Of a DNA stretch of 64,000 nucleotides, positions 27,005 to 63,438 are shown in pieces; the stretch's first letter is position 1, and each line of letters opens with the position of its first letter. The stretch spans positions 124,001-188,000 of the forward strand of contig JAIOPJ010000033.1 in assembly GCA_021413975.1 (NCBI GenBank). Direction: 5' to 3'. Position numbers and translations under genes: made by a program. The stretch comes from Gemmatimonadota bacterium. Lineage in GTDB: Bacteria > Gemmatimonadota > Gemmatimonadetes > Gemmatimonadales > Gemmatimonadaceae. The notes under the pieces were generated by a model. It did not search any database, was not told where the DNA came from, and saw only the letters and a list, made by a program, of their open reading frames with translations.

Positions 27005-28033
27005 GTGTTCATCGACATCGTCACCGTCCGTGTAGCCGCCGGCACCGGCGGCTCCGGCTGCACCTCGTTCCGTCGCGAGAAGTTCGCCCCCATGGGCGGC
27101 CCCGACGGTGGCGAGGGAGGGAAGGGCGGCGACGTGATCGTGCGCGGCGAGTCCAATCTCTCCACGCTCCTCGACTTCACGTACCGCGACAAGTGGGCGG
27201 CGGAGCGCGGCCAGCATGGCATGGGCAACAACAAGACCGGCGCCTCCGGAGAGGACATCATCCTGCCGGTGCCCCCCGGCACCGTGATCCGCGACAAGGA
27301 GACGGGCGAGCGCCTCGGCGAGATCATCGAGCACGGGCAGGAGATCCGCGTCGCCAAGGGGGGACGTGGCGGCAAGGGGAACTCGTTCTTCGCCACCGCC
27401 ACGCACCAGTCGCCGCGCGAGTGGCAGCCGGGCGAGGAAGGCGAGGAGCGGACACTGGAGTTCGAGCTCAAGCTGATCGCCGACATCGGCCTCGTGGGTC
27501 AGCCCAACGCCGGCAAGTCGACGCTCCTCTCGGTCATCTCCGCGGCACGCCCCAAGATCGCCGACTATCCCTTCACCACGCTCCAGCCGAACCTCGGCGT
27601 CGTGCAGCTCACCGACTCGCGCACCTTCGTGGTCGCCGACATCCCCGGCATCATCGAGGGCGCGCACGAGGGGAAGGGGCTGGGACTGCAGTTCCTGCGG
27701 CACATCGAGCGCACCCGCATGCTCGCCTTCCTGATCCCGATCGACACCATGGACTGGCAGGCCGAGTACGACCAGCTGCGCACGGAGATCGCGAGCTACT
27801 CGGCCGAACTCGCGCGGAAGCCGCACTGTGTCGTCTTCACCAAGCTCGACCTCCTGGGCGAGCACTATGTGCCGGAGATCGAGGCGCCCGACGCGTTCGG
27901 GAAGTACTCGATCTCGGCGGCGGGCCGGCTCGGCCTCGAGGAACTCAAGGCGGCCTGGTGGAGCCGGCTGCTCGAGATGCGGAAGAGCGCTGAACTGCAG
28001 AAGGCCGAAGAGGCTCGGCAGGCGCGCGGGTGA
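27005..28033 (+). CDS. obg: GTPase Obg/CgtA
   Basis: Ribosome-associated GTPase essential for large-subunit maturation. Of 342 residues, the first 158 are the glycine-rich Obg domain (FRREKFAPMGGPDGGEGGKGGD), then the G domain with G1 GQPNAGKSTLL (about residues 165-175), a switch with YPFTTLQPNLG, G3 DIPGIIEGA and G4 FTKLD. The protein ends soon after the G domain, so the OCT domain of longer Obg proteins is missing. Start GTG 27005 puts the conserved FIDIV at the N-terminus. The last four bases overlap dprA. Confidence 0.97.
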   Translation: MFIDIVTVRVAAGTGGSGCTSFRREKFAPMGGPDGGEGGKGGDVIVRGESNLSTLLDFTYRDKWAAERGQHGMGNNKTGASGEDIILPVPPGTVIRDKETGERLGEIIEHGQEIRVAKGGRGGKGNSFFATATHQSPREWQPGEEGEERTLEFELKLIADIGLVGQPNAGKSTLLSVISAARPKIADYPFTTLQPNLGVVQLTDSRTFVVADIPGIIEGAHEGKGLGLQFLRHIERTRMLAFLIPIDTMDWQAEYDQLRTEIASYSAELARKPHCVVFTKLDLLGEHYVPEIEAPDAFGKYSISAAGRLGLEELKAAWWSRLLEMRKSAELQKAEEARQARG

Positions 28034-28932
28034 GGCGCGCCGAGGTCCTGGGCCCGCGCGAACCGCGCTGGATCGGCGCCCAGGACCTCCCAGAGTGCTT
28101 CCGCGAGCTTTCGCGCCCGCCGGCGGGTTTGTGGTGCCTCGGGGACGCGGGTTCGCTCGCCGGCGTTCCCGATGGCCATGTGGCGATCGTGGGGACCCGT
28201 GAGGCCTCTCCCTATGGGATCCGCGTCGCCGAGCGACTGGCGGCTGCCTGCGCCAAGGCAGGGCTGGTGGTGGTGAGCGGACTCGCCCGCGGGGTGGACG
28301 CCGCCGCGCACCGCGCGGCCCTCGCCGAGGGTGGCCGGACGATCGGGGTGCAGGGGACCGGGGTCGACGTGCCCTATCCGGCCTCCCACCGGACCCTTCA
28401 CGATGCTCTCGTTCAGCGGGGGACCGTGATCTCCGAGATGGAGCCGGGCACCCGGGCCACGCCCGGATGCTTTCCTCGCCGGAACCGTCTGATCGCGGCC
28501 CTCTGCCGCGTGACCCTTGTGGTCGAGGCCGGGTTCAAATCGGGGGCCATCAACACCGCATCCCAGGCGCTTGACCTCGGCCGTACGGTCGCCGCCGTTC
28601 CGGGCCGAATCGACGACCCGGGTTCGTCGGGCGCCAATCTGCTCATCAGGGACGGCGCCCAGGTCATAACCGAGATCGCGGACCTATTGGCGCTGTTCGG
28701 GCCGGAGTTCGCCCTGCGGTACGGGGAGAGTCTGCGGCCGCGGTCGGAAGGCGTGGTTGCCGGGAGGGATCAGGCCGGGGGGAGCACGGGGCGTCAGCCG
28801 TTGGGTCCGGGACTCAAGGAGGAAGAGCAGGGTCCCGGAGGGTCACCTCGGGAACTCGCGGAGGGACTGCTCCGGGCCGAGCTCGACGGTTCGTTGCGTC
28901 GGGTCGGTCCGGGCTTGATGGCTCCGTGGTAG
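28030..28932 (+). CDS. dprA: DNA processing protein DprA (Smf)
   Basis: Single-strand DNA-binding RecA loader for transformation. The 300-residue protein shows the Rossmann core: VAIVGTREASPYG (about residue 52), VVSGLARGVDAAAHRAAL, TIGVQGTGVDVPYPASHRTL, ISEMEPGTRATPGCFPRRNRLIAALC and VVEAGFKSGAINTASQA. The N-terminal SAM-like domain is very short and the C-terminal winged helix appears reduced. It overlaps obg by four bases. In many bacteria topA follows; here a 710-base AT-rich gap follows instead. Confidence 0.93.
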   Translation: MRRAEVLGPREPRWIGAQDLPECFRELSRPPAGLWCLGDAGSLAGVPDGHVAIVGTREASPYGIRVAERLAAACAKAGLVVVSGLARGVDAAAHRAALAEGGRTIGVQGTGVDVPYPASHRTLHDALVQRGTVISEMEPGTRATPGCFPRRNRLIAALCRVTLVVEAGFKSGAINTASQALDLGRTVAAVPGRIDDPGSSGANLLIRDGAQVITEIADLLALFGPEFALRYGESLRPRSEGVVAGRDQAGGSTGRQPLGPGLKEEEQGPGGSPRELAEGLLRAELDGSLRRVGPGLMAPW

Positions 28933-29087
28933 CTGTCTCTCACGCGAGAGCGCCCCGACTTGGCTAGACTTAGGCGCGAGATTGTTCGGCGGCGGGTTCG
29001 GCCGGAAGGGCCAAGGGAGCTAGGGGAGATCCTGCCCGGTCCGGCCGCGTCGATTCGCAGCATTTCGTGGGCGGGCCGTGACCGGAC

Positions 29088-29096
29088 TTATCCACA
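29088..29096 (+). other. DnaA box 1 (perfect)
   Basis: TTATCCACA, an exact match to the DnaA consensus, on the plus strand. Confidence 0.7.
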
Positions 29097-29338
29097 CGGT
29101 TGCTCGGCTCATGCTTGGCGCTCTTGATTGCAGTCATCGAGAACGGACTCCCCTCACCAGCTCAACCCACGCGAGCCTACCGAACCATGAACACCGTCGC
29201 GGAGAAGACAGGGAAGGCCGCATTGGTGAAGAACCGTAAGAAGAGTCATATTGGCATGTTTGCGAACGGGCAACTCCGAAGTCGCTCCGGCACTGACACC
29301 GCTCGAAGCTAGAGTCTATTCGAGGTCTCCGAGTCGAC

Positions 29339-29347
29339 TGTGGATAA
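29339..29347 (-). other. DnaA box 2 (perfect)
   Basis: TGTGGATAA on the plus strand, i.e. TTATCCACA on the minus strand, 250 bases from box 1. Confidence 0.7.
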
Positions 29348-29460
29348 GTCGGAGACGGCCGCCAGGGCGGGGGAGCTTGCAGAAGGTGCCAGATCTCCTG
29401 GTTGAGAGGCAGATCAACCACTTCGCGCGCCGTCGACTCGATGGCATCGGTCGGAGCCGA

Positions 29461-29560
29461 GCACTGATACTAGACTTCAAGTATGTTATTGATTCAAATA
29501 GCTAATGAGTTGTAGTTAAATGGTTTGACAAATCACTTTAAGTCATTCTCAGCTAGGCTT
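29461..29560. other. AT-rich unwinding-element candidate
   Basis: 33 of 100 bases are G or C, against about two thirds in flanking genes. It lies between DnaA boxes 2 and 3, as a DNA unwinding element would. The low GC is directly counted; the function is inferred. Confidence 0.55.
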
Positions 29561-29642
29561 TCAGGCCGCTGCGGAGACGATCAGAGCCCGACTCCGTGCG
29601 CGCAACAGCTCTAGACCTCCCGCACTCAGCATCTCAATCCAG

Positions 29643-30818
29643 TTGAACCACACTGAACCGAACGCCTGGAGTCACGGAGACGTGGTTTATCCACACGTCT
29701 ACATCCATGTGCCCTTCTGCGTCCGTCGATGCTCGTACTGCGACTTCGCGATCGCCGTCCGAAAGGATGTCCCGGTCGCTGCGTTCGTTGACGCCATAAT
29801 GGCTGAGTTGGTAACGCGCGGAAGTTCCATCGATGCCACCAGGCTTCGATCACTCTATCTTGGCGGCGGGACGCCGTCGAAGCTCGGCGGACCAGGTGTC
29901 GCCGCACTTCTCAACAAGATCGCACGGAGTGCCGGTGTGGATGACTTTTCCACATCCGGTGGAGAACTCGAGATCACGGTCGAGGCGAATCCTGAGGACG
30001 TCTCGGCGGAGGCTTCCGACCTTTGGGCGGCGGCGGGGGTCAACCGGGTCTCCCTCGGCGTCCAGAGCTTTCACCCTGAAGTGCTCGAGTGGATGCACCG
30101 GGCGCACGGTCCACAGGCCCCAGGGGAGGCGGTCGCGAAGCTCCGCGACGCCGGCATCGACGACATATCCATAGATCTGATCTTCGCCCTTCCAGGGAAC
30201 CTGAGCCGGGACTGGGAGCGGGACCTCGCGCAGGCGCTCGAGCTGAAGCCGACCCACATCTCCCTGTATGGCCTGACCGTCGAGTCCAAGACCCCCCTCG
30301 GTCGCTGGACCGCCCGCGGGGAGGTCGTCGAAGCGCCTGAGGATCGGTACGCGGACGAGTTCATGGAGGCTCATCGGCTGCTGTCCGGAGCGGGTTTCGA
30401 CCACTATGAAGTGTCCAACTACGGCCTCCCCGGTCGAATGGCCCGGCACAACTCGGCCTACTGGATCGGGGCGCCCTACTTGGGGCTCGGCCCCTCAGCC
30501 CACGGATTCGACGGCGATCGCCGTCGGTGGAACGTGCCCGCCTACGCGGACTGGGCTACCCGTGTGGGTCGCGGTGAGGACCCGCGGGGCGGGGACGAAC
30601 TCCTCACCGCGTCGGAGCGGGAATCGGAGGCGGTCTACCTCGGACTTCGCACTTCCGGTGGACTTACTATCCGTGATAGTGAGATAACGACGGTTACTCC
30701 TTGGATAGACGCAGGCTGGGCGACGTTGGTGGACCGCACGCTGACACTGTCACCGCAGGGGTGGCTCAGGCTCGATTCGATCGCCGCCGCCTTGACTTCC
30801 ATCCGAAGTCGTTCGTAA
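29643..30818 (+). CDS. hemW: Radical SAM heme chaperone HemW (HemN-like)
   Basis: Radical SAM protein of 391 residues. VYIHVPFCVRRCSYCDF contains the CxxxCxxC iron-sulfur motif (about residue 25), followed by the family's LYLGGGTPSKL, EITVEANPEDV, VNRVSLGVQSF and SIDLIFALPG. HemW proteins deliver heme and differ from coproporphyrinogen dehydrogenase HemN; the CxxxCxxC lacks the extra Cys (CxxxCxxCxC) of true HemN. Possible starts are TTG 29643 and GTG 29682; neither has a well-spaced SD. The third DnaA box (29687-29695) lies inside the first codons. The hrcA promoter is inside its 3' end. Confidence 0.92.
   Translation: MNHTEPNAWSHGDVVYPHVYIHVPFCVRRCSYCDFAIAVRKDVPVAAFVDAIMAELVTRGSSIDATRLRSLYLGGGTPSKLGGPGVAALLNKIARSAGVDDFSTSGGELEITVEANPEDVSAEASDLWAAAGVNRVSLGVQSFHPEVLEWMHRAHGPQAPGEAVAKLRDAGIDDISIDLIFALPGNLSRDWERDLAQALELKPTHISLYGLTVESKTPLGRWTARGEVVEAPEDRYADEFMEAHRLLSGAGFDHYEVSNYGLPGRMARHNSAYWIGAPYLGLGPSAHGFDGDRRRWNVPAYADWATRVGRGEDPRGGDELLTASERESEAVYLGLRTSGGLTIRDSEITTVTPWIDAGWATLVDRTLTLSPQGWLRLDSIAAALTSIRSRS
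29687..29695 (+). other. DnaA box 3 (perfect)
   Basis: TTATCCACA at the 5' end of hemW. Two one-mismatch boxes follow inside the gene as an inverted pair: TGTGGATGA 29936-29944 and TTTTCCACA 29946-29954. Confidence 0.65.
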
Positions 30819-30821
30819 TCT
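30792..30821 (+). promoter_or_regulatory. hrcA promoter (leaderless)
   Basis: TTGACT at 30792-30797, 18-base spacer, TAATCT at 30816-30821. The -10 box ends seven bases before the hrcA ATG (30829), so the RNA should begin at the start codon. No CIRCE inverted repeat is seen here. Confidence 0.72.
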
Positions 30822-30828
30822 TAGACTT

Positions 30829-31887
30829 ATGGCCCTCCACGAGCTCTCAGAACGCGAACGTCGAGTCCTCGAGGCGGTCGTGCGATCCTATGTGGAGACG
30901 GCAGAGCCCGCGGGGTCGAGGACGATCTCCAGACGCTCCGGCATCGGAGTGTCCCCCGCGACGGTCCGCAACACCATGGCGGACCTCGAGGAGAAGGGCT
31001 TCCTCTTCCATCCGCACACCTCCGCCGGCCGGATCCCCACGGACAAGGCCTACCGCGTCTACGTCGACGACCTGATGCGGGTCGAGCCACCGGCGGCGAT
31101 CGATCGGGACCGCCTGGCGGAGCAGATCACGGGCGGTGGCTCGGCGATCGAGACCATCCTCAGGCGTGCGGCGCAATCGCTTGGCGTGCTCACGCAGGAA
31201 CTCGGGCTCGCGATCGGGCCGCGGCTCGACCAGACCATCCTGCTCAGGCTCGAGCTCGTCCGACTGACCTCGGAGAAGCTCATCCTGGTGCTCACGCTCA
31301 AGGGCGGCACCGTACGGACGATCTTCATCGAGATCCGCGGCGAGATCGCCGACGACGCGATCTCGGTGGTGCAGCAGGTGCTGAACGAGCGCCTCGGGGG
31401 ACTCTCCCTCGCCGAGATCCGCTCCAGCCTCGGCACGCGGCTGCGGGACGCGACTCCCGGCGGCGACGCCCATGAACTGCTGAACATCTTCCTGCAGGAA
31501 GGCGAGTCGCTGTTCGACGTGGCCTCGCCGCTCGAGGCGGACGCGGTGGTGCTCGGCCAGGCCTCGATCCTCGTCGACCAGCCGGAGTTCGCGAGCGGCG
31601 AGTCGATGAAGCGACTGATCACGCTCACCGAGACGCGCTCCGAGCTCGCCACGCTGCTGCGCGACCGCGCGTCGGCCCCCGGAGCGGGCGCGACCGGTGT
31701 CTCGATCACGATCGGCGACGAGCACGGCTCCTTGCTGCTCGGCGGCCTCACGCTGGTGACGGCCGAATACCGCGCGGGAAGCCTCACCGGTGTGATCGGC
31801 GTGATCGGGCCGACGCGGATGCCGTACGAGAAGGTGATCTCGCTCGTGTCGCACACCTCGTCGCTGGTGTCGGACCTGCTGACGTGA
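30829..31887 (+). CDS. hrcA: Heat-inducible transcription repressor HrcA
   Basis: Repressor of class I heat-shock genes that binds CIRCE operators and is kept active by GroEL. The 352-residue protein has the N-terminal winged helix (VLEAVVRSYVETAEPAGSRT and GVSPATVRNTMADLEEKGFL), the TSAGRIPTDKAYRVYVD junction, and the C-terminal dimer domain ending GVIGVIGPTRMPYEKVISLV. Start ATG 30829 sits seven bases behind a strong -10 box. It heads a group with a Ser/Thr kinase gene and dnaJ; dnaK, grpE and groEL are not in the window. Confidence 0.97.
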   Translation: MALHELSERERRVLEAVVRSYVETAEPAGSRTISRRSGIGVSPATVRNTMADLEEKGFLFHPHTSAGRIPTDKAYRVYVDDLMRVEPPAAIDRDRLAEQITGGGSAIETILRRAAQSLGVLTQELGLAIGPRLDQTILLRLELVRLTSEKLILVLTLKGGTVRTIFIEIRGEIADDAISVVQQVLNERLGGLSLAEIRSSLGTRLRDATPGGDAHELLNIFLQEGESLFDVASPLEADAVVLGQASILVDQPEFASGESMKRLITLTETRSELATLLRDRASAPGAGATGVSITIGDEHGSLLLGGLTLVTAEYRAGSLTGVIGVIGPTRMPYEKVISLVSHTSSLVSDLLT

Positions 31888-31929: not shown

Positions 31930-33831
31930 ATGGTGAACCATCCCGAGCGCGTGGATCCGCTCTTCCTCGAGTTCCAGCTCGCGGTGGCGGGCCGATACTC
32001 GATCGACCGGGAGCTCGGGCGCGGCGGCATGGGCGTGGTCTACCTCGCGCGCGACGTCCAGCTCGACCGTCCGGTGGCGATCAAGCTCCTGCCGCCCGAG
32101 CGCGCGCTCGACGAGGCGCTCCGCGAGCGGTTCCTCCGTGAGGCGCGGCTCGCCGCCAAGCTCTCGCACCCGAACATCATCCCGATCTTCGCGGTCGACG
32201 AGACCGACGGATTCGTGTTCTACGTGATGGCCTTCGTGGACGGCGAGACGCTCGGCGAGTGCGTCCGCGCGCGCGGGCCGATGGCGGCCTCCGAGGCCAC
32301 GCGCGTGCTGCGTGAAGTGGCCTGGGCGCTGGGACATGCGCATGGGCAGGGCGTGGTGCATCGCGACGTGAAGCCGGACAACATCATGCTCGAGCGCGGG
32401 ACGGGCCGTGCCCTCGTGACCGACTTCGGGATCGCCGCGGCGCTCGGGACCGACGACGGCCCCGAAGTCGCGGGGACGCCGGAGTACATGAGCCCCGAGC
32501 AGGCGCTGGGCGGGGAGCTCGATGCGCGGAGCGATCTCTACGGACTCGGCGCCACGGCGTACTTCCTCTGCGCGGGCCGCCCGCCCTTCAGCGGCGCCCG
32601 CGCCGTGGATGTGCTGGCGAAACAGGTCGCGACGGCGGCACCGGCCCTCTCGAGCGTGGGCGCATCGGTACCGCGGAAACTCGCGCACCTGATCGAGAAG
32701 TGCCTGGCGAAGGAGCCGAAGCACCGTCCCGCGAGCGCGCAGCATCTCGCGGAGCAGTTGACGCTCGCCGTGGAGCAGCGCCGCGAGGTGCCGGCGGCGC
32801 TGCGTGCGTTCGTGAAGCGCGACGGTCGCTTCACGGGAGGGGGGACTCTCGTCGTCGGGTACGTCGGACTGATGGGTGCGGTGCCAATCGTGATCGGGCT
32901 CGGTCCGTTCCTTGGCGTCGGAGTGATCGCCGCCACGATGCTGGGCATCCCCTTCGCCGCCATGACGATGGGTGCGCGCGGCCTGATCAGGCGGGGGTTC
33001 TCCCTCGCCGATGTCGGATCGGCGTTCGAGAGCGAGATCGAGCAGTTGCGGGAGGAATTCTCGTCGTCGGGTCGAGTCGAGCGGAAGCAGCTGGAAAGGG
33101 CCGCGGGCATCGCCGCGATGGGTGCGGGTTTCTCGATGATGGCGCTCATGTGGGTGTCCGGGATCGCCACCGGTGATTTCGCCGGCGCGTCGCTCGCCGC
33201 GAACTTCATCCCGTTCGCAGGGCTCTCGACGATCGGGGCGCTCGCGGTGCGTCAGGTGCTGCGCGCGCGGCGCCCCCATGCCTCACCCGAGTCGTGGGCC
33301 AAGCTCTGGGCGGGACGAGTGGGCCGCGCGGCCTTCGCCCTCGCACGCAAGCTCGGCGCCCGTCCGGCCGCAGGCGCATCGACGACCCACCGCGCGACGG
33401 AGATGGCGATCGGCATGGCCGCCGGTGAACTCTTCGCGTCGCTCCCGAAGGTCACGCAGAAGGCCCTCGGCGACGTACCGGGGATCGTGAACAACCTGCA
33501 GAAGGACGCGGCCTCGCTGCGCACGCGGCTCGACCAGCTGAACGAGTCGCTCGCCGACGCGGGGGATGCGGCGACCGGCCCCGAGTACGCCGAACTGCGA
33601 GAGGTGCGCGACGAGTTGGCCAAGCGACACCGCGACGTGATCACGACGCTCGAGACCACGCGACTCAACCTGCTCCGGCTGCACGCCGGCGCCGCGACCG
33701 TCGACGGGCTCACGACCCACTTCGACCTCGCTGACGAGGTCTCGCATGAGGTGCGGCGCCTGCTCGAGGCGCGCGGGGAGGTGGAGCGCTACCTCAAGTT
33801 CCCGTCGCCGCCGCGACCGACGCCCGGCTGA
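31930..33831 (+). CDS. Membrane Ser/Thr protein kinase (PknB/Stk type)
   Basis: Hanks-type kinase of 633 residues. The catalytic domain (about residues 20-280) shows LGRGGMGVVYLARD, VAIKLL with the catalytic Lys, HRDVKPDN (about residue 143), DFG (about 165) and GTPEYMSPEQ. It is followed by four hydrophobic segments (about 303-345 and 395-440) instead of the single helix plus PASTA repeats of PknB. The last 170 residues are charged and coiled-coil-prone (KDAASLRTRLDQLNESLADAGD). All catalytic residues are present. It lies between hrcA and dnaJ, so a role in stress signalling is suggested by position only. Confidence 0.93.
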   Translation: MVNHPERVDPLFLEFQLAVAGRYSIDRELGRGGMGVVYLARDVQLDRPVAIKLLPPERALDEALRERFLREARLAAKLSHPNIIPIFAVDETDGFVFYVMAFVDGETLGECVRARGPMAASEATRVLREVAWALGHAHGQGVVHRDVKPDNIMLERGTGRALVTDFGIAAALGTDDGPEVAGTPEYMSPEQALGGELDARSDLYGLGATAYFLCAGRPPFSGARAVDVLAKQVATAAPALSSVGASVPRKLAHLIEKCLAKEPKHRPASAQHLAEQLTLAVEQRREVPAALRAFVKRDGRFTGGGTLVVGYVGLMGAVPIVIGLGPFLGVGVIAATMLGIPFAAMTMGARGLIRRGFSLADVGSAFESEIEQLREEFSSSGRVERKQLERAAGIAAMGAGFSMMALMWVSGIATGDFAGASLAANFIPFAGLSTIGALAVRQVLRARRPHASPESWAKLWAGRVGRAAFALARKLGARPAAGASTTHRATEMAIGMAAGELFASLPKVTQKALGDVPGIVNNLQKDAASLRTRLDQLNESLADAGDAATGPEYAELREVRDELAKRHRDVITTLETTRLNLLRLHAGAATVDGLTTHFDLADEVSHEVRRLLEARGEVERYLKFPSPPRPTPG

Positions 33832-62167: not shown

Positions 62168-63438
62168 GCCACGCCGGCGCCACCTCCGCCGAGGCGCTGT
62201 CCGTCCACGCACTCACGAGTGCCGCGAAGGATGTGCTCGAGGGCGCCTTCCCCAGGCTCTGGGTGCGCGGAGAGGTCTCCGGCTACAAGAAGTACCCGAG
62301 CGGGCACTGGTACTTCACGTTGAAGGACGCCGAGGCGCAGATCCCGTCGGTCGTCTGGAAGGGCAGCACCGCCCGGATCCGCGAGAAGCTCGAGGACGGA
62401 CTGCAGGTGCGCGCCTACGGCCAGCTCACCGTCTGGCCCGCGAGCGGCAAGATGCAGTTCGTGGTCACGGCGATCGAGGCCGACGGCGAGGGTCTCTGGC
62501 AGAAGCGGTTCGACGAGACCAAGGCGCGGCTCGAGAAGGACGGGCTGCTCGACCCCGCCCGCAAGCGCGCGCTGCCGCGCTTCCCGCGCACGGTCGCGGT
62601 GATCACGAGTTCGGAGGCGGCCGCGCTGCGCGACGTGATCGCCGTGATCGGGCGGCGCAATCCCGGCGTGCACGTCGTGGTGATCCCCGCCGCGGTGCAG
62701 GGCGAGGCCGCGCCCGAGTCGCTGCTCGGGGCCCTCGATCGGCTCGCGCGCTGGGTGGGGGGCGACGCCGAGTGGCGCGGCGTGGCGATCCCCGCGCCCG
62801 AGGTCCTGATCATCGGGCGCGGCGGCGGGTCGCGCGAGGACCTCTGGGCCTTCAATCACGAGGGGGTCGCCCGGGCGATCGCGGCCTGCCCGGTCCCGAC
62901 GATCTCCGCCGTGGGTCACGAGACCGACGTCACCATCGCCGACCTCGTGGCCGACCTCCGGGCCGCGACCCCGAGCGTGGCCGCCGAGCATGCCGTGCCG
63001 GTGCTGGCCGAGGTGCGGGAGCTGGTGACCCAGCTCGCGGGCATGATGGCCGACGGCCTGCAGGACCGGATCCAGGTGGCGCGCCGTGACCTCGACCGGC
63101 GCGCCGATGCGCTCTCGCGCCGCGCCCAGCTGGTGGTGGAACGCCGACGCGTGCGCGTCGACCGGGTCGCGGCCCGGCTCGCGCCGCAGGGGCTCCGTTC
63201 GGTCGAGCGGCGACGGGCGCGCATGGAGACCCTCGGCGCGATGCTCGAGGCGCGGAGCCCCCTGGCCGTGTTCGCGCGCGGGTTCGCCGTCGCCCGGGGC
63301 GCGGATGGCGCAACTTTGGCGCAGCGCGCGGCGTTCATCCCGGGGACGCCGTTCGACCTGTTGCTGCGGGACGGGCGCGTGCGGGCCACGACCGACTCGG
63401 TGCACACCGACGCCCCTCATCTGCGGACGGACGCATGA
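62164..63438 (+). CDS. xseA: Exodeoxyribonuclease VII large subunit
   Basis: Catalytic subunit of 424 residues. The N-terminal OB domain has [24 protein letters not shown], and the catalytic part has [70 protein letters not shown] (all family hallmarks), then the long helical C-terminus. GTG 62164 overlaps the folD stop. It ends four bases into xseB, the small subunit. Confidence 0.97.

Follow-up and report, generated by a model that had tools for sequence, protein, structure and literature searches.

A conserved cluster of predicted DnaA boxes around an AT-rich palindrome at hemW in a genus of the Gemmatimonadaceae: a probable distal locus controlling DnaA or hemW, and not oriC

What does a cluster of DnaA boxes do between dprA and hemW, and partly inside hemW, of a member of the Gemmatimonadaceae? 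A sequence-only reading of the 64,000-nucleotide stretch analysed here (the window), which lies on a 205.6-kb contig (C36) of the source assembly (G000; relatives are numbered G0xx), had offered three answers: an origin of replication, a DnaA-binding control locus like datA or DARS, and a DnaA-regulated hemW promoter. The five boxes on which it relied, three exact copies of TTATCCACA and an inverted pair with one mismatch each, are all present at the positions and on the strands it gave (Table 1). It was also right that the genes on both sides run in the same direction, the order on a single strand being obgE, dprA, hemW, hrcA, a Ser/Thr kinase gene (31930-33831, between hrcA and dnaJ), dnaJ and a prmA-like gene. 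The likely GTG start of hemW (29682) is separated from the stop codon of dprA (28932) by 749 bp with a GC content of 57.8%; one other apparent gap in the window, at 36.7-37.8 kb, is filled by small ORFs. The AT-rich dip reported upstream of hemW is present, and the 33% GC over 100 bases and 27% over 60 bases claimed for it are slightly off (Table 1). Nowhere else on the contig is a 100-base window as AT-rich as in this dip (33% at 10-base steps, the next being 46%).

Table 1. Coordinates of genes, DnaA boxes and the AT-rich palindrome element at hemW, as positions in the window.
Feature	Position	Strand	Remarks
dprA	28030..28932	+	upstream neighbour; NCBIfam dprA, 213.7 bits, over cut-off
Exact DnaA box TTATCCACA	29088-29096	+	-447 relative to the centre of the palindrome (upstream arm); 8/14 same-genus loci with one between -415 and -491
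Exact DnaA box TTATCCACA	29339-29347	-	-196 from palindrome centre; counterparts at -192 (G006) and -202 (G013 and G014)
AT-rich element	29462..29561	n/a	32% GC; 25% over 29482-29541
Imperfect palindrome, 26 bp, pattern TGANAANNNACNTNANNTNNTTNTCA	29526..29551	+	at end of AT dip
hemW	29682..30818	+	NCBIfam TIGR00539 HemW, 237.1 bits, over cut-off; start inferred as GTG 29682
Exact DnaA box TTATCCACA	29687-29695	+	over hemW codons 2-5
Inverted pair of DnaA-like boxes inside hemW	29936..29954		TCATCCACA 29936-29944 (-); TTTTCCACA 29946-29954 (+)
hrcA	30829..31887	+	directly after hemW; NCBIfam hrcA, 267.7 bits, over cut-off

A genome-wide scan for TTATCCACA, suggested as a check by the earlier reading, found 8 exact copies in the 3.08-Mb assembly, 3 of which fall at hemW within 608 bp. 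When one mismatch was allowed, the window contained 9 sites against 1.64 expected, a number reached in 0 of 100 shuffles, and five of the nine sit in 0.87 kb at hemW. Similarly, the proportion of TTWTCCACA sites located at hemW was 4/9 in G000, 3/6 in G012, 2/7 in G005, 2/8 in G015 and 3/4 in G010; hemW is the largest cluster of this motif in G000, G012 and G010, whereas in G005 and G015 a single further close pair equals it. Single boxes and pairs were also seen at some distance from the locus. For example, an exact box at G000:C36:114183-114191, 9.8 kb before the window, lies upstream of recA (gene read by eye) with a 46% GC dip near it, G003 carries an exact box 41 kb from hemW, and close pairs of TTTTCCACA occur 56 and 53 kb from hemW in G005 and G015, respectively.

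The earlier reading had named a lack of the boxes in relatives as part of what would speak against it; the relatives keep them, and the cluster of predicted DnaA boxes at hemW is conserved throughout the source genus. The start of hemW is present in 15 same-genus genomes, and at least two boxes were found at hemW in each of them (13 with full loci, plus G004 and G006; G002 and G007 are without the hemW start and are left out), and exact ones in 13 of the 15, G014 and G006 having none. Of the 54 exact boxes in these 15 genomes, 20 are concentrated in approximately 1.2 kb at hemW. Thirteen same-genus 1-kb regions together contained 48 boxes with at most one mismatch, 17 of them exact, at 2-5 per locus, compared to a mean of 1.3 (maximum 4) for 60 dinucleotide shuffles and a mean of 1.7 for 300 permuted motifs, for which one motif gave the maximum of 33. 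Seven loci from other genera of the family yielded 2 boxes in total, both in one genome. Within the genus it is the number of boxes that is steady (2-5) while their positions drift: boxes flank the palindrome on both sides in 10 of 14 loci and are all downstream in the remaining 4. The downstream boxes fall roughly between +100 and +200 and between +270 and +430, counted from the palindrome centre.

The boxes inside hemW coincide with a stretch of coding sequence that, by codon alignment, is 4-7 codons longer in the source genus than in 21 loci of other genera. This longer stretch typically reads V-D-K-F-S-T and is absent from 15 loci of two other genera of the family, g25 and g42; locus L136 carries a different insert. 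At least one box of the inverted pair falls within the longer stretch in 12 of 13 loci, with neither present in G014. Both boxes, at no more than one mismatch, occur in only three of the 13 (G000, G013 and G015), and among 179 family genomes the strict form of the pair was found only in the hemW genes of G013 and G008. In G012 the HemW match (C1:1893241-1894359) includes one internal TGA, which may be an error or mark a broken gene.

The AT-rich dip is likewise a feature of the genus, with 15-32% GC per 60 bp in 13 of 13 loci as compared to minima of 42-62% in seven loci from other genera of the family. The palindrome has a wider distribution. Its strict form is present in 29 of the 179 genomes of the family, always as a single copy (14/17 in the source genus, 10/18 in g25 and 5/11 in g42) and was not found in the remaining 32 genera scanned; 15 positions are invariant across the 29 sequences, and G004 retains the core in the absence of the strict form. 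In 28 of the 29 cases the palindrome could be placed upstream of hemW, 55-229 nt before the HemW N-terminal motif where measured, the number being 28 rather than 29 because locus L138 lacks a HemW motif by the pattern used. A comparison of 100 loci, which counted some genomes twice and left out loci with less than 700 bp upstream or without the HemW motif, showed that in 98 of them hemW is preceded, on its own strand, by an ORF carrying a dprA-like motif. The dprA-hemW gap is shorter than 100 bp in 1 of 27 loci with the palindrome (at most 3 substitutions) versus 48 of 71 without it. Exact boxes accompany the palindrome in 3 of 10 g25 loci and in 0 of 5 g42 loci; four of the five g42 loci have no nearby box, and the fifth has a single one-mismatch site far upstream. 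Because boxes are this sparse beside the g25 and g42 palindromes, the palindrome probably predates the array of boxes. Moreover, since palindrome and dip occur in g42 mostly without boxes, they would have a role apart from DnaA.

Several identities for the palindrome were considered and rejected. As the operator of a regulon it should recur, and a second site is absent from a total of 1.83 Mb sampled from three genomes, where a weight-matrix scan scored at best 12.2 outside hemW versus at least 43 for the 29 members. As dif, with XerC and XerD arms, it is contradicted by a dif-like site with a shared core located elsewhere in 12 of 17 same-genus genomes (for example at C50:42225 in G000 and at 1479036 in G005). 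This argument is not made for G012, which gave only two weak matches, one of them in the hemW dip at 1894570, nor for G015, which gave none. A scan limited to sampled stretches gave one weak match. As a CIRCE operator for HrcA (TTAGCACTC-N9-GAGTGCTAA) it can be set aside, a CIRCE-like site (1-3 mismatches) being present elsewhere in 6 of 6 genomes. An alignment of the palindromes (29526-29551 in the source genome) from all three genera shows outer and inner repeats offset by one base on the left, which is unusual for a simple dimer site.

How, then, might the locus function? Judging from its sequence features, it probably controls either DnaA, at a distance from the origin, or hemW. The reading that we prefer, with a probability of roughly 0.48, is a DnaA-binding control locus outside oriC, similar to datA and DARS or to the box clusters of Bacillus subtilis, that would tune replication initiation. 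According to this proposal, DnaA would bind boxes around an AT-rich, palindrome-bearing centre, namely upstream of it (often by about 450 bp), around the start of hemW, and within hemW some 400 bp downstream. A different protein at the palindrome would probably help to gather the DnaA-bound boxes, possibly by looping, and the bound DnaA would be either kept away from oriC or altered in its nucleotide state. Such a control locus is favored over a simple operator because the site is unique, the array is maintained in number, boxes lie within the gene and the chromosomal place is steady.

This last point could be measured in three genomes. Measured from the box on the oriC side, hemW lies 1.38 Mb away in G012, 1.37 Mb away in G005 (counted through the ends of its main contig, which were treated as joined) and 1.35 Mb away in G015 (on one contig), always on the same arm relative to dnaA. 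A dif-like site lies at 1.479 Mb in G005, 278 kb beyond hemW, and the skew maximum of G012 is located about 285 kb beyond hemW. Therefore, hemW sits approximately 83% of the way along one arm from the oriC candidate to dif (G005) or to the skew maximum (G012). A locus this close to the terminus in two genomes would be duplicated late, such that its copy number relative to oriC would vary through the cell cycle. The constant place of the locus may, on the other hand, reflect plain synteny.

Comparison with characterized systems gives a mixed picture. The E. coli consensus for IHF is WATCAANNNNTTR, and it was found among the boxes at 1 of 14 loci; the consensus is that of E. coli, and the partner could differ in this phylum. 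In the published descriptions available for these loci, datA, DARS1 and DARS2 of E. coli keep both their sequence and their distance to oriC, and relocation of datA near the terminus results in asynchronous initiation (PMC4585315). The B. subtilis box clusters are described as binding free DnaA, with early initiation in a strain without all six (PMC5295017, PMC13220808). The same descriptions attribute loci outside oriC that set the nucleotide state of DnaA to E. coli, and B. subtilis is said there to have box clusters only (PMC4585315, PMC5295017, PMC13220808). The hemW locus resembles datA, as portrayed in that account, in having several non-oriC DnaA boxes around a central protein site and a preserved distance to oriC (PMC4585315), the boxes being predicted high-affinity sites and the distance 1.35-1.38 Mb on the same arm in 3 genomes. 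It differs from datA in being far from oriC, in having boxes partly within a gene and in lacking the IHF consensus in 13 of 14 loci. With DARS1 and DARS2, again as described there, it shares multiple non-oriC boxes and a preserved place on the arm (PMC4585315); in contrast to them, it has no core of three boxes at constant spacing in any of 14 loci, and, unlike DARS2, 13 of these lack the IHF consensus. Like the B. subtilis clusters it comprises multiple DnaA boxes outside oriC, yet it forms a single principal cluster, located toward the terminus, whose centre is AT-rich and which carries a unique palindrome. Our literature search returned no paper linking hemW with the term DnaA box; one paper came up for Gemmatimonas in connection with oriC and DnaA boxes (PMC5109545), and among papers on Gemmatimonadetes replication origins and DnaA none, as judged by title, concerned such a locus.

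One might imagine that Gemmatimonadaceae evolved this type of control independently: a lineage-specific AT-rich palindrome element would have arisen between dprA and hemW, whereupon one genus would have built a box array around it, even within an extra stretch of hemW, to reset DnaA late in each replication round together with a partner that is neither IHF nor Fis. We consider this scenario possible but less probable than not. Conservation of such a cluster in a third phylum, where a one-of-a-kind site could point to the partner protein, would allow a test of whether this kind of control has originated repeatedly. Several observations count against the control-locus reading in general, including the box-less palindromes of g42, the 4 of 14 loci with all boxes downstream, the full pair inside hemW in only 3 of 13 loci, the one permuted motif that scored 33, the two genomes (G014 and G006) without an exact box and the 13 of 14 loci without an IHF consensus.

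The main rival, which we consider a possible but less probable explanation, is that the dip and palindrome constitute the promoter and operator of hemW (and hrcA), and that DnaA bound around and within the gene would repress or activate it, tying haem delivery to the replication cycle. The constant association of the palindrome with hemW (28 of 29) keeps this explanation alive, and it also fits the wider dprA-hemW gap in loci with the palindrome, the third exact box covering the hemW start, and an AT dip beside argH and argR on another contig (see below), which implies that such dips need not be unwinding elements. However, a palindrome that is unique in the genomes scanned would be odd for a regulon operator, the boxes continue for 250 nt within the coding sequence and vary in place, and a consensus scan at hemW found no sigma-70-like promoter, although boxes do sit at the hemW start. 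Control of DnaA and control of hemW could both hold together. Hence these two of the three answers originally offered, the datA/DARS-like locus and the DnaA-regulated hemW promoter, survive because the cluster is conserved through the genus, and sequence alone cannot choose between them.

An improbable alternative is that the site has nothing to do with DnaA, being instead a hemW operator or an RNA hairpin next to which box-like sequences were kept for other reasons. The box-less palindromes in g42 are in keeping with this idea, as is a modest covariation when the palindrome is folded as a bulged hairpin, which would also be expected of a DNA operator. Against it stand the enrichment of boxes and the box-bearing extra stretch of hemW, and a search of Rfam over 28000-31500 returned zero matches up to E = 1. 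We rejected the RNA hairpin as an identity for the palindrome, the covariation being modest and not decisive.

The remaining alternatives concern replication origins. As the sequence-only reading had claimed, dnaA does not adjoin hemW; it is found on another contig (C33, at 44.4 kb). About 18 kb from dnaA, an AT dip of 33% GC lies between same-strand boxes at 62706 and 62819 (113 bp apart), and parS-like sites follow approximately 3 kb beyond this pair, with parA and parB adjoining (read by eye from ORFs). We consider this box pair around an AT dip near parS (G000:C33:62706-62827) the likely best candidate for oriC. G012, G005, G010 and G015 likewise have a box with parS about 3 kb further on (G011 also has parS), and the pair around a dip has a counterpart in G012 and less exact ones in G005 and G015. 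On C33 the strand-corrected skew is -0.031 at 50-60 kb and +0.017 at 70-80 kb, the change occurring around the box pair, dip and parS; it is again negative (-0.020) at 90-100 kb, plus-strand genes are absent from 60-70 kb, and raw cumulative skew has a flat minimum whose lowest point is at 92-94 kb. G012, a single contig, was sampled in 74 stretches amounting to about 45% of its chromosome. Its skew switches from negative to positive at a point 40-60 kb from dnaA, some 30-40 kb beyond the box pair, and reverses once more near 1.61 Mb, which leaves hemW (1.894 Mb) inside one arm. The 20 stretches sampled from G005 were too noisy for a conclusion.

A second, part-time origin firing from hemW besides oriC is very unlikely. 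The anatomy at hemW does resemble that of an origin, and raw skew in G012 is weak on the oriC side of hemW (-0.017, -0.013 and -0.009 in succession) as compared to -0.030 on the dif side. However, this weakness tracks gene orientation, and third-position skew corrected for strand over both gene strands is alike on the two sides, at -0.038 (dif side) versus -0.043 (oriC side) in G012 and -0.012 versus -0.009, both near zero, in G000. The early hint from raw skew was gone after extra sampling of G012 and strand correction.

Least probable of all is the main chromosomal oriC at hemW, despite boxes that surround an AT-rich dip with the lowest GC per 100 bp (33%) in the 1.08 Mb of G012 scanned, where the candidate on the parS side comes next (36%, tied with a spot 2 kb off), and despite a cumulative skew minimum close by within the window (25-26 kb), where strand-corrected skew is equal on both sides. 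Among the marks of an origin, hemW has the cluster of DnaA boxes and, by composition, an AT-rich element like those that unwind; neither a sign change in GC skew nor nearness to dnaA or parS was found there. The hemW locus is not oriC because skew, dnaA and parS agree on a location elsewhere, and this exclusion is independent of where exactly the origin lies. Thus the first of the answers originally offered fails by the GC-skew test put forward along with it, skew turning elsewhere, beside dnaA and parS. The case cautions that even the combination of DnaA boxes with an AT dip and a local minimum of skew is no proof of an origin. The dip mentioned above, at 93.28 kb, is the second most AT-rich spot of C33; it lies beside argH and argR (read by eye) and has no box with at most one mismatch. 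Finally, a box was seen where we did not expect one: in two related-family genomes an exact DnaA box lies 15 bp from a dif-like site (G031:C3:139423-139468 and G035:C2:62589-62634).
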